22,586 nucleotides of DNA. Source: a virus. A program made the position numbers and the translations under genes. How positions within the stretch are numbered: position 1 is the first letter of the stretch; each line of letters begins with the position of its first letter. The notes under the pieces were generated by a model that did no database searches, was not told the DNA's origin, and saw nothing but the letters and a program-made list of their open reading frames with translations. Location of the stretch: positions 1 to 22,586 of the IMG/VR virus record IMGVR_UViG_3300010368_000124; one strand, 5' to 3'. Below, piece after piece: positions 52 to 5,443 of this stretch.

Positions 52-80
52 TTGAGGCGGAGCCGTATTTCTTATATAAT
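52..80 (+). promoter_or_regulatory. Sigma70-like promoter of the ParB/ABC/GNAT operon
   Basis: TTGAGG (52-57) and a perfect TATAAT (75-80) are separated by 17 bases, the optimal sigma70 spacing. Transcription would begin near 87, about 33 bases before the first ParB start codon. The strand, the spacing and the position just ahead of a run of overlapping genes make it the likely operon promoter. Bases 1-51 hold no gene I can support and may be the end of an upstream gene. Confidence 0.7.
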
Positions 81-83
81 ACA

Positions 84-112
84 CCAATACTAACTGACTA
101 TCAACGTATTGG
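84..112 (+). promoter_or_regulatory. Inverted repeat reaching the Shine-Dalgarno of the first ParB gene
   Basis: CCAATAC (84-90) and GTATTGG (106-112) form a perfect 7-bp inverted repeat around a 15-base loop. The right arm overlaps the GGAG ribosome-binding site (111-114). In RNA the stem could mask that site. In DNA it would sit right at the predicted transcription start and could be an operator. A transcript starting at 87 would carry only part of the left arm, so the RNA role would need an upstream start. Confidence 0.45.
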
Positions 113-119
113 AGTGACA

Positions 120-782
120 ATGCAGACCAAACTGGTTGATCCGGGTATTCTTCAACCGAACCCGTGGAATACGAACTCAGTCGGCGCTGAAAACATGGAG
201 AAGCTGAAACGGTCGATCTCTGACCTTGGCTTCTGCACAGCAGTCGTAGTGAGAGAGTTGCCTTCGGGTGAGCTCGAAATCCTCGGTGGCCAGCACCGTA
301 CGGAAGCCGCCGTTGAGCTCGGGATCGAACTGGTCCCGGTCGTCAATCTCGGGCCTGTCGAGGATGACCGGGCGAAGAAGATTGGCCTCGTCGATAACGC
401 TCGGTACGGCGTCGATGACGCTCACGCGCTGGCAGAGCTCTTCGAGTCCGTTGGTATCGATCCGATCATCGCGGCTGCTTTCCTGCCGATGGACGAGGGC
501 GAGATCGAACAGATTCTCAGCTCCACCGAGATCGACCTCGATAACCTCGACTTCATGGCCGACGACGATGACGACGGCTCTGAGGATGAGACGCTCGCCG
601 ACCTGAAAGAGCGCCCTAAACCGACGCATACCCAATTGCGGTTTCGCGTCCCGAACGCCGATGCGGAATCTATCTCTCGTGTCATCGAGAAGACGATCTC
701 ACGCGAAGGCATCAACGATGGCGACGACGCTACGAACGCTGGTTCCGCGCTCGCCCATCTCCTGCTGAATAGTACGTCATGA
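120..782 (+). CDS. ParB-like N-terminal domain protein (first of two)
   Basis: This 220-residue protein has a ParB/sulfiredoxin-fold domain over about residues 5-100, with the signature GGQHR at 56-60 followed by T-E-A-A. An aspartate-rich linker follows (about 150-165), then a C-terminal region that begins T-H-T-Q-L-R-F and is common in phage-borne ParB-like proteins. Such proteins bind DNA or act as nucleases or CTP-dependent clamps; which applies here is unknown. The ATG at 120 is preferred over an in-frame ATG at 9 because it has GGAG five bases upstream and because the promoter at 52-80 lies between the two. Its stop overlaps the next start as ATGA. There is no ParA partner, so plasmid-type partitioning is unlikely. 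Confidence 0.88.
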   Translation: MQTKLVDPGILQPNPWNTNSVGAENMEKLKRSISDLGFCTAVVVRELPSGELEILGGQHRTEAAVELGIELVPVVNLGPVEDDRAKKIGLVDNARYGVDDAHALAELFESVGIDPIIAAAFLPMDEGEIEQILSSTEIDLDNLDFMADDDDDGSEDETLADLKERPKPTHTQLRFRVPNADAESISRVIEKTISREGINDGDDATNAGSALAHLLLNSTS

Positions 783-955
783 CTGAGTGTGAAGAAATGA
801 AATTCGACGAGTGCATGGACTGCACCCACTTCCGCGTCAGGCGCGAAGAGCAAGTGCTCACGCGGACCTGCAAGAACTGTGACGCAGGGGAGGAGTTCGA
901 AGAGAGCGACGTCCTCGGCGTCGATGAATATCTGAGAGACGCCAATGACCGATAA
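779..955 (+). CDS. Small zinc-ribbon protein, 58 residues
   Basis: This short acidic protein fills the gap between the two ParB-like genes. It carries two CxxC knuckles, C12-M-D-C15 and C31-K-N-C34, with 15 residues between them, which is a zinc-ribbon or treble-clef arrangement. Its start overlaps the ParB stop as ATGA, and its end overlaps the next gene by 11 bases, so translation is probably coupled along the operon. The spacing of the knuckles is close to that I recall for Mu Com, the small zinc-binding protein that activates translation of mom. Because a GNAT gene lies downstream, a Com-like role is worth testing, but resemblance at this length is weak evidence. It could equally be a structural zinc-binding accessory of the ParB proteins. 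Confidence 0.75.
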   Translation: MTECEEMKFDECMDCTHFRVRREEQVLTRTCKNCDAGEEFEESDVLGVDEYLRDANDR

Positions 956-1610
956 AATCTCAAATGCGCCGGTTGAAAGCTGGGACGTCGCAGACGTCAA
1001 GCCATACGAGCGCAACAACAAGAAACACCCTCCGAAGCAGATCGAGCAACTCGCTGCGTCCATCGCCGATCAGGGCTTGAATGACCCGATCACGGTCGAT
1101 GATGGCGGTGTGATTATCTCCGGCCACGGTCGGTACGAGGCCATCCTCAAGCTCGGCTGGACGAAGGTTCCTATTCGGTGTCTGCGCGGGATTTCGGAAG
1201 CGAAAGCTGCGAAACTTCGGATTGCGGCGAACAAGACATCGAGCACCGAATACGACCTTGATGTGCTCTCCGAAGAGCTGGAACGCCTGTCCATCCTTGG
1301 CGAGAACATCACGGTCATGGGCTTCGATAGCCGTGAGCTTGAAATGCTTATGGACGATCTCGGGGAGATGAGCGACGCGGCTATCACTGATATCGACACC
1401 GCCGTCTCCGACTTTGACGATGACGTTCTGGACGCGGCGGCGAAAGCCGAGGGTTCTGACATCTCGCTCTCGAAGGCGTTCGACATCAAGCGTCTTCCGT
1501 TGCGATCCCAGAAGGTCGCCGGTCTGTTCATGAAGCGCATCGAAGAGCTTACCGGTCTGACCGGCGCTGACGCTCTGATGGCTCACATGGAGGCCGTCAC
1601 CAATGACTGA
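945..1610 (+). CDS. ParB-like N-terminal domain protein (second)
   Basis: This 221-residue protein has a ParB-like domain over about residues 10-110. The motif SGHGRYEA (59-66) corresponds to the GEGRxRA/GGxHR box of the family. The remainder (about 110-221) is helical and acidic, with a basic C-terminal stretch after residue 175. It differs clearly from the upstream ParB-like protein, so this is not a recent tandem duplication. ParB-like proteins of this type often sit next to terminase and DNA-modification genes in phages. The ATG at 945 lies inside the end of the zinc-ribbon gene, and its stop is the TGA of ATGACTGA, which contains the start of the ATPase gene. DNA binding is likely; the reaction, if any, is unknown. 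Confidence 0.87.
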   Translation: MTDKISNAPVESWDVADVKPYERNNKKHPPKQIEQLAASIADQGLNDPITVDDGGVIISGHGRYEAILKLGWTKVPIRCLRGISEAKAAKLRIAANKTSSTEYDLDVLSEELERLSILGENITVMGFDSRELEMLMDDLGEMSDAAITDIDTAVSDFDDDVLDAAAKAEGSDISLSKAFDIKRLPLRSQKVAGLFMKRIEELTGLTGADALMAHMEAVTND

Positions 1611-2259
1611 TCTCGTCATCAACCGGAAGTTCCAATCACGCGTCAAGCGGACGGATCGAGTCATGAAGGTGGCAGAAGCCTTCGGTATCGGTCTGGAAGA
1701 CCGCGAGTGGGTCGTCTTCAAGGATTGGAAGGTTTCCATCGAACAGGGCTCCGTGGTGTACGTCACGGGGCAGTCAGGTAGTGGTAAGTCCACTTTGCTC
1801 CGAGAGCTCGCTGCTGGGCTCTCAGCAGCCGGGAAGCGCGTATGTATCATCGATGACGTGGTGTTCACCGACGAACCCATCATCGACCAGCTCGGGTCCG
1901 ACATGACCGAGGCAACCCGGCTCCTCGCGATGGCCGGTATCTCGGACGCGTATCTCTACATTCGCAAGCCCTCTGAATTGTCCGATGGTCAGCGTTACCG
2001 GTTCCATCTGGCCAAGCTGCTCGAACAGGATGCCGACGTTTGGGTGGCCGACGAATTCGGGGCCGTACTCGACCGCGTCACCGCTGAGGTCGTCGCCTAC
2101 AACGCGCAGAAGATCGCTCGTAGCGTCGGCAAAACCCTGATCGTCGCCACCACTCACACCGACCTGATCGAAGGTCTTGGGCCGGACATGGTCATCACCA
2201 AGCGCTTCCAAGATCGCGTCGATGTTTGGACGTCACGGGATGAAGACAAACATGCTTGA
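1603..2259 (+). CDS. Soluble ABC-class ATPase (like the ATPase half of COG2401)
   Basis: All ABC motifs are present in 218 residues: Walker A GQSGSGKST (56-64), a Q-loop candidate Q96, signature LSDGQ (126-130), Walker B with D150-E151, a D-loop-like AVLD (154-157) and H-loop H185. There are no membrane segments and no permease partner, so it is not a transporter. The Walker B region (ADEFGAVLDR) and the end (ATTHTDL) fit COG2401, where such an ATPase is fused to a GNAT-like domain. Here the GNAT gene is separate and next in line, with an 8-base start/stop overlap (ATGCTTGA). This arrangement suggests that the two products work as one complex. The substrate is unknown; DNA or a nucleotide is the most reasonable guess. 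Confidence 0.87.
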   Translation: MTDLVINRKFQSRVKRTDRVMKVAEAFGIGLEDREWVVFKDWKVSIEQGSVVYVTGQSGSGKSTLLRELAAGLSAAGKRVCIIDDVVFTDEPIIDQLGSDMTEATRLLAMAGISDAYLYIRKPSELSDGQRYRFHLAKLLEQDADVWVADEFGAVLDRVTAEVVAYNAQKIARSVGKTLIVATTHTDLIEGLGPDMVITKRFQDRVDVWTSRDEDKHA

Positions 2260-3133
2260 TGATCACGAAACGCCGTTTTTGATAGACAAACGCGAGGAGC
2301 CTCCGCGCCTGTCGTTCCTCGACCGCGTGTTCGTCGAGAAGGGTACGCGCGACGATTGGCTGCTGCTCGAAGGCTTGCACTACAAGGCGCATGGCACAAC
2401 GCCGGGAGCTCACTACTACCGGCTGGTGCTCGATGATGAGACCATCGGTGTTCTGATGATGGCCTCTCCGAAGCTGCTGCTCAAAGAGCGCCACGTGATG
2501 TTTCCGAAACTCAAGCCCGCCCGTGACACTCGGATCGCGAACCAGAAGCGTATGACGTGGATCAACGCGAACATGTCAATCGTCGCCCGGTGCGTCGTGG
2601 ACACGATGTATCGCGGGGCAGGGCTTGCATACCGGTTCACCAACATTGCGAGCCGGATGGAGAACAAGCGCTTCATTGAAATCCAGTCATCAATGAGCAA
2701 GTACAATCAATTCGCCCAGAAAGCCGGGTTTGTTTTCTGCCCGCCGATGAAGAGCAACAAGTACGACGTCGGCATCAAGTTTTTCCGATCCATGTTCGAC
2801 GCCGACCCGGCAGACACCGAAGGGCTGATCGAAGAGATCATGTCCAAGCCGGACGTCGAACGGGATTTCTTGATCGCCGAGCTCCGCAAGTTCTACCGGA
2901 AGCACTCCATGTTGGAGAACACCGGGAAGGCTCTGATCGAGAACTTCGGAGACCGGAGAGTAGCCCGTCTTCCTGTCCGTGAGCTGGTCTACCAGACGCA
3001 ACAGATGGTCATCGCGAGCCCTCTCTACGGTGTCTACACGAACCCTGACGTTGGCCGAGAACTTCCGGCCAGAATTTCTATTCACGCCTTTGACCAGCAG
3101 GCCGTGAACGAACCTCTGAATTTGGAGACCTGA
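2252..3133 (+). CDS. GNAT-fold acyltransferase-like protein paired with the ABC ATPase
   Basis: This 293-residue protein has a GNAT-like N-terminal half: LHYKAHG (42-48), a beta-strand region ending in G-V-L-M-M-A, then VVDTMYRGAGLA (115-126), whose R-G-x-G is the acyl-CoA-binding motif A. YNQFAQKAGF (151-160) follows, like GNAT motif B. The C-terminal 120 residues are a helical region I do not recognise. The ATG at 2252 gives the same 8-base overlap with the upstream TGA seen elsewhere in this genome; ATG 2240 is an alternative. COG2401 fuses such a domain to an ABC ATPase. Mom of phage Mu is also a GNAT-fold protein, acting on adenine in DNA, so DNA base modification is a candidate role. 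A Mom relationship is inferred from fold and context, not demonstrated. Confidence 0.72.
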   Translation: MLDDHETPFLIDKREEPPRLSFLDRVFVEKGTRDDWLLLEGLHYKAHGTTPGAHYYRLVLDDETIGVLMMASPKLLLKERHVMFPKLKPARDTRIANQKRMTWINANMSIVARCVVDTMYRGAGLAYRFTNIASRMENKRFIEIQSSMSKYNQFAQKAGFVFCPPMKSNKYDVGIKFFRSMFDADPADTEGLIEEIMSKPDVERDFLIAELRKFYRKHSMLENTGKALIENFGDRRVARLPVRELVYQTQQMVIASPLYGVYTNPDVGRELPARISIHAFDQQAVNEPLNLET

Positions 3134-3134
3134 A

Positions 3135-3404
3135 ATGGCCGAGAGAATGAGCAGCAAGCAGTATCAAATCCTCGACGTCCTGATCCGGGGAAACCCTGAC
3201 GGTTCGTGGATTGATATCGATCAGCTCCTCGAACGTCTCCCGTACGAGACGACGAAACCCAGCATCCAGCACTCGATCCGAATCCTCATGAGGAAGGGAT
3301 TGATGGAGCGGAAAAACATCGAACGCCGGAGAGGATCAGACCGTCGTCTGCTTGCTCCGACGATGAAAGCTTACACCACCATGAGAGGCGCTACAAAACC
3401 GTAA
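3135..3404 (+). CDS. Small winged-helix DNA-binding protein
   Basis: This basic 89-residue protein matches a winged helix-turn-helix pattern. An N-terminal helix carries KQYQILDVLI (8-17). A helix-turn-helix region around DIDQLLERL and the following P-S-I-Q-H-S-I-R-I-L-M-R-K-G-L helix comes next, and then a wing rich in arginine (ERRRGSDRR, 63-71). A GGAG lies seven bases before the ATG, and the gene starts two bases after the GNAT stop. It closes the ParB/ABC/GNAT operon and may be its regulator or a regulator of the late genes. MarR-like topology is likely, but the target is unknown. Its stop codon lies within the left arm of the large inverted repeat that follows. Confidence 0.7.
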   Translation: MAERMSSKQYQILDVLIRGNPDGSWIDIDQLLERLPYETTKPSIQHSIRILMRKGLMERKNIERRRGSDRRLLAPTMKAYTTMRGATKP

Positions 3405-3510
3405 CCGAGAATTCCAGCCCCCGTTAATAATAAGAACTAATATACTATAAGATATATAATATAATAATATATATATATATAGGGGCTATGTTTTTTCGGT
3501 TACTGTTTTG
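3394..3510. repeat. Long inverted repeat enclosing a very AT-rich island upstream of the small terminase
   Basis: The outer arms are 3394-3411 and 3493-3510 and match at 16 of 18 positions. Nested inside are AGCCCC (3416-3421) and GGGGCT (3482-3487). Between them, about 58 bases are almost purely A and T, ending in a TA dinucleotide run (3466-3480). A T6 run (3491-3496) follows the inner right arm. The island contrasts sharply with the GC-rich surroundings. Its position directly before the small terminase gene fits a packaging initiation site (cos or pac). A replication origin, a terminator of the upstream operon, or an insertion scar are alternatives. Confidence 0.7.
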
Positions 3511-3551
3511 GAATGAAGCGCCTCTCGACCATCCCGGTCGAAAGGAACGTA

Positions 3552-4181
3552 ATGTCCAGTACCACAAAGAAATACATCCGACTTACTGCGGCTCAATGGG
3601 CTGCGGTAGTGGCGAAATGGGAGCTTGGAACTCACACTCTCCAATCGCTCTCGGAAGAGTATCGCATCTCGCTCACAGCGATCAAGCAGGGATTGAACTC
3701 TCGCGGTGCAAAGCGCGGTGTCCGCGCTCACGAGGTTGCCGAAGAGGTAGTCGAGCAGCAGAAGTCTGACCGTCAGCGTACCGCTGAGCTCGCCGGTCGG
3801 ATGAAGGAGAAGTATCTCAAGTACACCGACGCCATCTCGTCCATTGCGATGCGAAAGCTGATGGAACAGCACGCGGCGGGGAAGTCCCTCGAAGGCATCA
3901 AGGGCGAGATGGAAACGCTGCGCAAAGCCGCAGCCGTCCTCTCGACCATGCGAGACGAGAACTTCCATCTCCTCGGTCTCTACAAGGACGATATCAGCGA
4001 GGAAGAGCTGCCTGAGATCATCATCTCCGAACTTACGGCAGAGGAGCTCGATGCAATCCAGCGGAACTTCGAGACGGATGCCGCCGTGACCTTGTCCGAT
4101 GAAGACATGATCGCGATGGTGGACGAGGAGGAGGCCAGCGATCCTGTCCTGCCGTTCGATGACGAGGAGGGGGCCGACTAA
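3552..4181 (+). CDS. Terminase small subunit
   Basis: This 209-residue protein lies directly before the large terminase and overlaps it by one base (TAATG). The N-terminus carries a helix-turn-helix candidate at about residues 28-50 (TLQSLSEEYRISLTAIKQG), the part that would recognise the packaging site. A long helical, coiled-coil-like region (about 60-140) would oligomerise the ring, and the C-terminus is very acidic, as expected for contact with the large subunit. The start is set at ATG 3552, with AAGGA five bases upstream, rather than the in-frame ATG at 3513, which has no ribosome-binding site. The call rests on position, size and architecture, since small subunits diverge quickly. Confidence 0.8.
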   Translation: MSSTTKKYIRLTAAQWAAVVAKWELGTHTLQSLSEEYRISLTAIKQGLNSRGAKRGVRAHEVAEEVVEQQKSDRQRTAELAGRMKEKYLKYTDAISSIAMRKLMEQHAAGKSLEGIKGEMETLRKAAAVLSTMRDENFHLLGLYKDDISEEELPEIIISELTAEELDAIQRNFETDAAVTLSDEDMIAMVDEEEASDPVLPFDDEEGAD

Positions 4182-5443
4182 TGGCCGTTCGTGTCCCTCC
4201 GCATATCCTGAAACTCCACCCCGGTCAGGCACAAGTCGCTGTCAGTCGGAAGCGTTTCCGTGTGATCGTCGCCGGTCGTCGATGGGGCAAAACCCACTTC
4301 TCGCGTACCGAGCTGATCAAGGCTGCGATCAAGAAACCAAAGTCTCTGGTCTGGTACGTCGCACCGTCCTATCGGATGGCCAAAGACATCATGTGGGACG
4401 AGCTCAACGACGCTATCCCTCGCCGGTTGGTGAAGAAGAAAAACGAAACCAAGATGCAGGTCCGGTTGGTCAACGGCTCGATCATTCAGCTTCTCGGTGC
4501 CGATGATCCTGACTCGCTGCGTGGTCGCGGCGTGGACTTTGTCGTGCTCGACGAGTTTCAGGATTTCAAGGAAGGCGTCTGGGAGCAGGTTATCTATCCG
4601 ACGCTGACCGACAGACAGGGCCACGCTCTGATCATCGGTACGCCGAAGTCGTTCAACCAGCTCTACAAAGCTTGGGACAAGGGGCAGTCTGACGACACGA
4701 TCAACGAAGACTGGGCGTCGTGGCAGTTTCCGACGGCGACCTCTCCGTTCATCCCGAAGAAAGAGATCGAAGCTGCGCGCCGGAACCTTCACGAGAAGGC
4801 GTTCAAGCAGGAGTACGAGGCGTCCTTCGAGACCATGTCCGGTCGGGTTTACTACGCCTTCGACCGCAAGACCCACGTCGGAACATATGACCTCGATCCG
4901 TCGCAGCCGATCCTTATCGGGATGGACTTCAACATCGATCCTATGTCGGCTGTGATCATGCAATACTCCCGCGAGAAGCGAGAGCTTTGGGTGGTGGACG
5001 AAATCCACATGACCCAATCGAACGTCGCCGAGATCGCTGACGAGATCGAGCGTCGGTACTGGCGTCACATCAAGGCGAAGAAGGTCGCGGTCTATCCTGA
5101 CCCTGCCGGTGCAAATCGAAATCAGGGACGTGGCGAGTCGAACTTCGACGTGCTCAAGCAGAAGGGCATCAAGCACATCATCTATCGTCGCAAGCACCCC
5201 GCCGTCACTGACCGGGTCAACGCGGTGAACTCGATGCTGCGCTCTGCCGATGGATCGATCCGCATCCGGGTCGATAAGCGGTGCAAGGAACTGATCAAAT
5301 CCCTTGAACAGACGCTCTACAAGTCCGGCACCGCGCAGGTGGATAAGTCTGCCGGTATGGAGCACATGGCCGATGCCATCGGCTATCCTGTCGAGTACCT
5401 CTTTCCGGCACGTCGTACCGATCTTGTTGGCGTCAGCCGTTGA
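4181..5443 (+). CDS. Terminase large subunit (packaging ATPase and nuclease)
   Basis: This 420-residue motor protein translocates DNA into the prohead and cuts the concatemer. The ATPase domain has a Walker A AGRRWGKT (31-38), Walker B VDFVVLDE (118-125) with catalytic E125, and a coupling motif IIGTPKS. The RNase H-like nuclease domain starts at GMDFNIDP (247-254) with D249. It continues through YPDPAG and ends with the conserved acidic residue D398 in HMADAIGYP. It is slightly short for the family but complete. Downstream, a promoter in the 61-base gap separates it from the portal gene, so terminase and portal can be transcribed separately. Confidence 0.96.
   Translation: MAVRVPPHILKLHPGQAQVAVSRKRFRVIVAGRRWGKTHFSRTELIKAAIKKPKSLVWYVAPSYRMAKDIMWDELNDAIPRRLVKKKNETKMQVRLVNGSIIQLLGADDPDSLRGRGVDFVVLDEFQDFKEGVWEQVIYPTLTDRQGHALIIGTPKSFNQLYKAWDKGQSDDTINEDWASWQFPTATSPFIPKKEIEAARRNLHEKAFKQEYEASFETMSGRVYYAFDRKTHVGTYDLDPSQPILIGMDFNIDPMSAVIMQYSREKRELWVVDEIHMTQSNVAEIADEIERRYWRHIKAKKVAVYPDPAGANRNQGRGESNFDVLKQKGIKHIIYRRKHPAVTDRVNAVNSMLRSADGSIRIRVDKRCKELIKSLEQTLYKSGTAQVDKSAGMEHMADAIGYPVEYLFPARRTDLVGVSR

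Follow-up and report, generated by a model that had tools for sequence, protein, structure and literature searches.

A split ParB and ABC-GNAT operon beside the terminase genes of a tailed phage, a candidate system for acylation of DNA bases

A six-gene operon upstream of the terminase genes

The stretch of DNA analysed here, called the window, comprises all 22,586 bases of one virus record and represents a fragment of a tailed-phage genome. Six plus-strand genes at 120-3404 encode, in order, ParB1, a four-cysteine protein, ParB2, an ABC ATPase, a GNAT protein and a winged-helix protein (Table 1). The terminase genes come directly after, and the portal gene follows TerL. The operon is tightly packed, with genes 1-5 overlapping by 4-11 nt and the winged-helix gene starting after a 1-nt gap. 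The start of ParB1 is placed at the ATG at 120, behind GGAG, with an in-frame ATG at 9 that is likewise open. An earlier, sequence-only reading of this DNA had described six tight genes behind one promoter. The six open reading frames, their order and their packing were confirmed, but the promoter-like site is no better than those in shuffled sequence, as the window contains 2 such sites versus 2.0 expected from the shuffles.

Table 1. Genes and features of the operon and the adjoining terminase genes.
Feature	Position	Strand	Remark
Promoter-like site TTGAGG-17-TATAAT	52..80	+	Not above chance expectation
ParB1 (phrog_723 type)	120..782	+	ParB_N domain only; extra ParB of this phage lineage
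58-residue four-cysteine protein	779..955	+	C-x2-C ... C-x2-C-x2-GExFE; probably zinc-binding; optional part
ParB2 (phrog_930 type)	945..1610	+	Counterpart of the single ParB preceding fused ABC-GNAT genes
Soluble ABC ATPase	1603..2259	+	ABC half of split COG2401-type protein
GNAT-fold protein (phrog_886), 293 residues	2252..3133	+	Predicted acyltransferase half; extra helical C-terminal domain
Winged-helix protein (MarR/PadR-like fold), phrog_900, 89 residues	3135..3404	+	Probably a DNA-binding regulator
Small terminase-like DNA-binding protein (phrog_867), TerS-like	3513..4181	+	Directly after the operon; precedes TerL in relatives
Large terminase subunit TerL	4181..5443	+	Syntenic anchor

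The arrangement is strongly conserved. The order ParB1-ParB2-ABC-GNAT was kept in all 61 relatives with enough upstream DNA, with a minus-strand helicase gene preceding ParB1, and TerL follows in 71 of the 71 relatives with enough downstream DNA. Co-occurrence of the genes in other phages had been named beforehand as a test of the operon, and because the order holds at every one of the 61 loci the gene set is more than a chance assembly. The GNAT gene was found in 30 phage records and in at least 204 virus stretches. The module is also present in 905 plasmid records, mostly phage-plasmids and mainly from Klebsiella, Escherichia and Acinetobacter, 789 of which are called non-mobilizable. SSU5-type phage-plasmids have this operon in the corresponding position, where it is annotated as ABC transporter and partition genes and has no function reported in the papers that we found. 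The literature searched, for which coverage was incomplete, likewise yielded no report of modified DNA in SSU5-type phages. At about 50 loci an extra gene of about 84-166 residues, encoding a conserved small protein that is absent in the window, lies between ParB2 and the ABC gene (for example L008 5014-5364).

The encoded proteins and their fold relatives

Both ParB proteins matched the Pfam ParB_N family, ParB1 with an E value of 6e-9 and ParB2 with 1e-5, just short of the Pfam cut-off. ParB2 also matched phrog_930 at 2e-54, and the two proteins belong to different phage ParB families, phrog_723 and phrog_930, which agrees with the initial description of two distinct ParB-like proteins. The open reading frame of the 58-residue CxxC-CxxC protein noted in that description is present as well, and its four cysteines are invariant, and its GExFE motif kept, in 14 relatives. 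Its gene was found by direct search in 18 of 61 loci; nickie gp159, which occupies the same position and has no cysteines, was left out of the set. The proposed analogy of this protein to Mu Com fared less well. The comparison gave a probability of 2%, and the protein was rejected as a Com homologue.

The ABC protein contains a Walker A motif (GQSGSGKS), a signature motif (LSDGQ) and a Walker B motif (VADEF), all near invariant in 24 relatives and consistent with the soluble ABC ATPase with intact motifs that had been proposed. Family scans of all six proteins found no membrane permease partner in the operon, and we rejected the reading as an ABC transporter on that ground. The small winged-helix protein was modelled with AlphaFold2 at a pLDDT of 89 and gave MarR/PadR matches, in line with its first assignment.

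The GNAT protein had no Pfam match, matched no ATPase family, and returned nothing in a PDB sequence search. An AlphaFold2 model built with 36 relatives reached a pLDDT of 91 and a pTM of 0.82. Foldseek searches with this model returned GNAT enzymes, with TmcA as the top PDB match and Mu Mom (8bv8) at rank 4, and searches of viral models matched LE4 gp15, an ABC-GNAT fusion, and a Salmonella Mom. In the R-G-x-G loop of the 36 relatives the R and the first G are invariant and the second G is kept in at least 90%. The GNAT assignment, the fold of which had likewise been named beforehand as a test, is thus supported by fold and motif, and conservation of the loop favours an acyl-CoA donor. Given the GNAT fold of the protein and the lack of a match to any ATPase family, the phrog_886 label of ‘ABC transporter ATP-binding subunit’ is wrong; this mislabel has spread through the public records of many phage genomes.

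Mu Mom acts on DNA adenine and TmcA on tRNA cytidine, and the two fold relatives resemble the window system in different ways. Mom has the GNAT fold in common with the window protein and an HY motif similarly placed in both alignments, but carries N-S-E-S in place of the R-G-x-G loop kept in the window family. A profile comparison of the two gave a probability of 5%, and we therefore rejected homology to Mom; the closeness to Mom in particular that had been suggested comes down to a likeness of fold, and Mom is a structural cousin only of the window GNAT. TmcA, the tRNA(Met) cytidine acetyltransferase, is similar in combining an ATPase with a GNAT that acts on a nucleic-acid base. It differs in being a single chain with an RNA substrate, and its ATPase is of a different, helicase-like type, leaving the GNAT fold as the one element common to both systems. 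A search for Mom genes elsewhere in seven SSU5-type genomes, run without a positive control, found none.

Relation to the fused ABC-GNAT system

The sequence-only reading had also proposed that a COG2401-type fusion of ABC ATPase and GNAT is split in this operon. We compared both proteins with profiles of the fused family, the alignments of which held first six phage proteins and then 52 from viruses and bacteria. The ABC protein, which is of the DEF...DR type, matched the fused-family profile with an hhalign probability of 99.9 and an E value of 2e-32, and the GNAT protein matched the GNAT domain of the family with a probability of 96 and an E value of 2e-9 over about 100 columns. In the window the two domains are encoded by two overlapping genes and not by one polypeptide. 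These matches support the view that the window proteins correspond to the two halves of a COG2401-type fusion. Phage pT24, which the literature names for a GNAT-ABC pair, matched the ABC profile at 5e-23. In pT24 the ABC-GNAT frame (L094 4067-5239) is interrupted by a stop that cuts off the ABC part from the remainder of the GNAT part, and it is therefore annotated as two genes.

Three relatives, L302, L316 and L326, with TerL proteins 52-55% identical, contain one fused gene between ParB2 and the winged-helix gene. The genes retained around it in L302 and L316 are ParB1, a cysteine-protein gene, ParB2, the winged-helix gene, TerS and TerL; the L326 fragment starts inside ParB1 and has no cysteine gene. 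In a tree of ABC domains all split forms fall into one clade (100/100), and the three fused genes lie inside the fused clade. Two architectures that separated long ago thus occupy one operon slot, an argument for a common function of the split and fused forms; the two architectures are interchangeable. This natural swap also shows which genes form the working core. ParB1 of L302 and L316, the two loci tested, is of the split type. ParB2 of all three loci can be aligned from end to end, including the tail, with the ParB partners of fused genes, and therefore the working core is probably ParB2, ABC and GNAT. The tail of ParB2 may make contact with the ABC-GNAT part.

The fused form regularly has a ParB gene upstream. 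On virus contigs, 36 of the 57 open reading frames directly upstream of a fused gene matched Pfam ParB_N, and 48 of the 57 matched a ParB profile built here. On contigs of bacterial genomes, ParB adjoins the fused gene in 47 of 71 cases and lies within 3.5 kb in 55 of 71. A control count of ParB genes directly downstream of fused genes gave 1/114. Many genomes of Nonomuraea and related bacteria carry a fused ABC-GNAT gene, several with ParB upstream (L222-L243). Directly downstream of fused genes we found genes for Asp decarboxylase (3), formyltransferase (3) and others. The aspartate decarboxylase or formyltransferase genes after fused ABC-GNAT genes at L097 5098-5523, L099 5008-5625 and L100 5023-5496 encode candidate tailoring enzymes, which would suit the trimming or capping of an amino-acid-like group; no tailoring enzymes were found in the operon of the window.

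Collectively, the window resembles the COG2401-type fused system, as in phages LE4, Jace, Axumite and pT24, in its homologous ABC and GNAT domains, in the ParB gene upstream (ParB2 in the window) and in the slot that either form can fill. It differs in that ABC and GNAT are separate genes in a clade of their own, in the different C-terminal domain of the GNAT protein, and in the addition of a second ParB, a winged-helix gene and the four-cysteine protein. We found no paper on COG2401 or on this gene set in the literature searched, for which coverage was incomplete, and the split form, the second ParB, the cysteine protein and the split/fused swap appear undescribed. The earlier statement that no system with the full gene set has been described appears to hold for the split form with its extra genes. 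It does not extend to base acylation by ABC-GNAT proteins, which is not a new idea, since the fused system, in which a GNAT is coupled with an ABC ATPase, was already predicted to modify a DNA base with an acyl group (PMC7824862, which cites an earlier paper).

Proposed function and alternatives

We propose that the operon encodes a split ParB and COG2401-type ABC-GNAT system that most likely, at a rough probability of 0.6, adds an acyl group to a base of the phage's own DNA at a late stage of infection. ParB2, perhaps with ParB1, would load on or mark DNA in a nucleotide-driven manner. The ABC protein would dimerise on ATP, open or scan the DNA and position it, and the GNAT protein would transfer an acyl or aminoacyl group to the exocyclic amino group of a base. 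Regulation of the operon or the marking of sites would fall to the winged-helix protein, and the cysteine protein may be an optional adaptor. The benefit would presumably be protection from restriction. To our knowledge no chemistry is known for any ABC-GNAT member.

Several observations are consistent with base acylation, besides the homology to the fused system, the interchange with it and the prediction published for it. The closest folds of the modelled GNAT protein include the base modifiers TmcA and Mu Mom, and the enzymes encoded after fused genes are of kinds that would suit the tailoring of an amino-acid-like group. ParB lies upstream of the fused form and also before a Mom gene. In the Microbacterium phage Appa, a ParB gene directly precedes a Mom-like gene (L102 3469-4728), and a tRNA-Gly(ccc) adjoins. 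Participation of a ParB-like ATPase in base modification has been described before, for DpdB (PMC12839542). Against base acylation stand the lack of sequence homology to Mom and the constant proximity to the terminase genes, which also fits a packaging-linked task. The tRNA-Gly beside the Appa mom gene is suggestive of glycine as the donor for Mom. About 110 ABC-GNAT loci showed no enrichment of tRNA genes, and an aminoacyl-tRNA donor, as hinted at by Appa, was rejected for this system.

More tentatively, in SSU5-type phages and phage-plasmids a ParB NTPase, a separate ABC ATPase and an acyl-CoA- or aminoacyl-dependent GNAT might together install a new acylated base just before packaging, as a widespread system interchangeable in nature with the fused enzyme. 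If so, an unrecognised DNA modification, often annotated as an ABC transporter, would be present in over 900 sequenced plasmids and in hundreds of phages. Phage-plasmids might by this means evade restriction on changing hosts, and PhiR41_1 or another K-12 phage would offer a test of the ABC-GNAT base-acylation prediction.

It is unlikely that the GNAT protein instead modifies RNA, for instance a tRNA in the manner of TmcA, which has an ATPase domain of its own, or a protein of the host or the phage, with ABC and ParB controlling access. TmcA is the top PDB fold match, and many GNATs have proteins or small molecules as their substrates. However, the ParB_N proteins and the winged helix point to DNA, and in phage Appa ParB is also paired with the DNA enzyme Mom. 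The strict linkage to the late and packaging region and the absence of tRNA gene enrichment at the loci likewise speak against this reading.

An accessory role in packaging or genome maturation, in which ParB and ABC load on concatemers and aid the terminase while the GNAT tunes a protein, is less probable still. The operon lies directly upstream of TerS and TerL in every relative that could be assessed, and fused relatives are often near terminase genes too, with a terminase small subunit gene adjoining in 4 of 52. The module is present in all 23 loci with a TerL identity of 52% or more, but at all 22 loci where the related terminase has 43-48% identity, ABC and GNAT are absent. That packaging should require the module is therefore unlikely, and the alternative that the genes prepare DNA for packaging, offered at the outset, loses ground accordingly. 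We rejected an essential packaging factor for the same reason. Fused versions also occur away from terminase genes, among tail genes, in a T4-like phage and in the jumbo phage pT24.

A plasmid-partition or transcription-control locus of a phage-plasmid, with the ParB proteins as centromere binders, is very improbable: the ParB domains, the winged helix and the plasmid life of many relatives would fit, but family scans found no ParA-type gene in the operon, ParB_N is the only domain recognised in the ParB proteins, and the genes are linked to GNAT, ABC and late genes. A known anti-phage defence system was also rejected, as PADLOC gave generic ATPase and ParB/MTase matches only, with the gene set of no system.

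Two minor features lie at the edges of the operon. An opposed promoter-like site is present on the minus strand at 104-76 and would be in keeping with the helicase gene that reads away from this point in relatives, the contig starting too close to show the gene itself. At the other end, the spacer between the winged-helix gene and TerS (3405-3487) is AT-rich, with 27% GC versus about 56%. A GC dip at this spacer is also seen in relatives, and the spacer may serve as a late promoter or packaging site.
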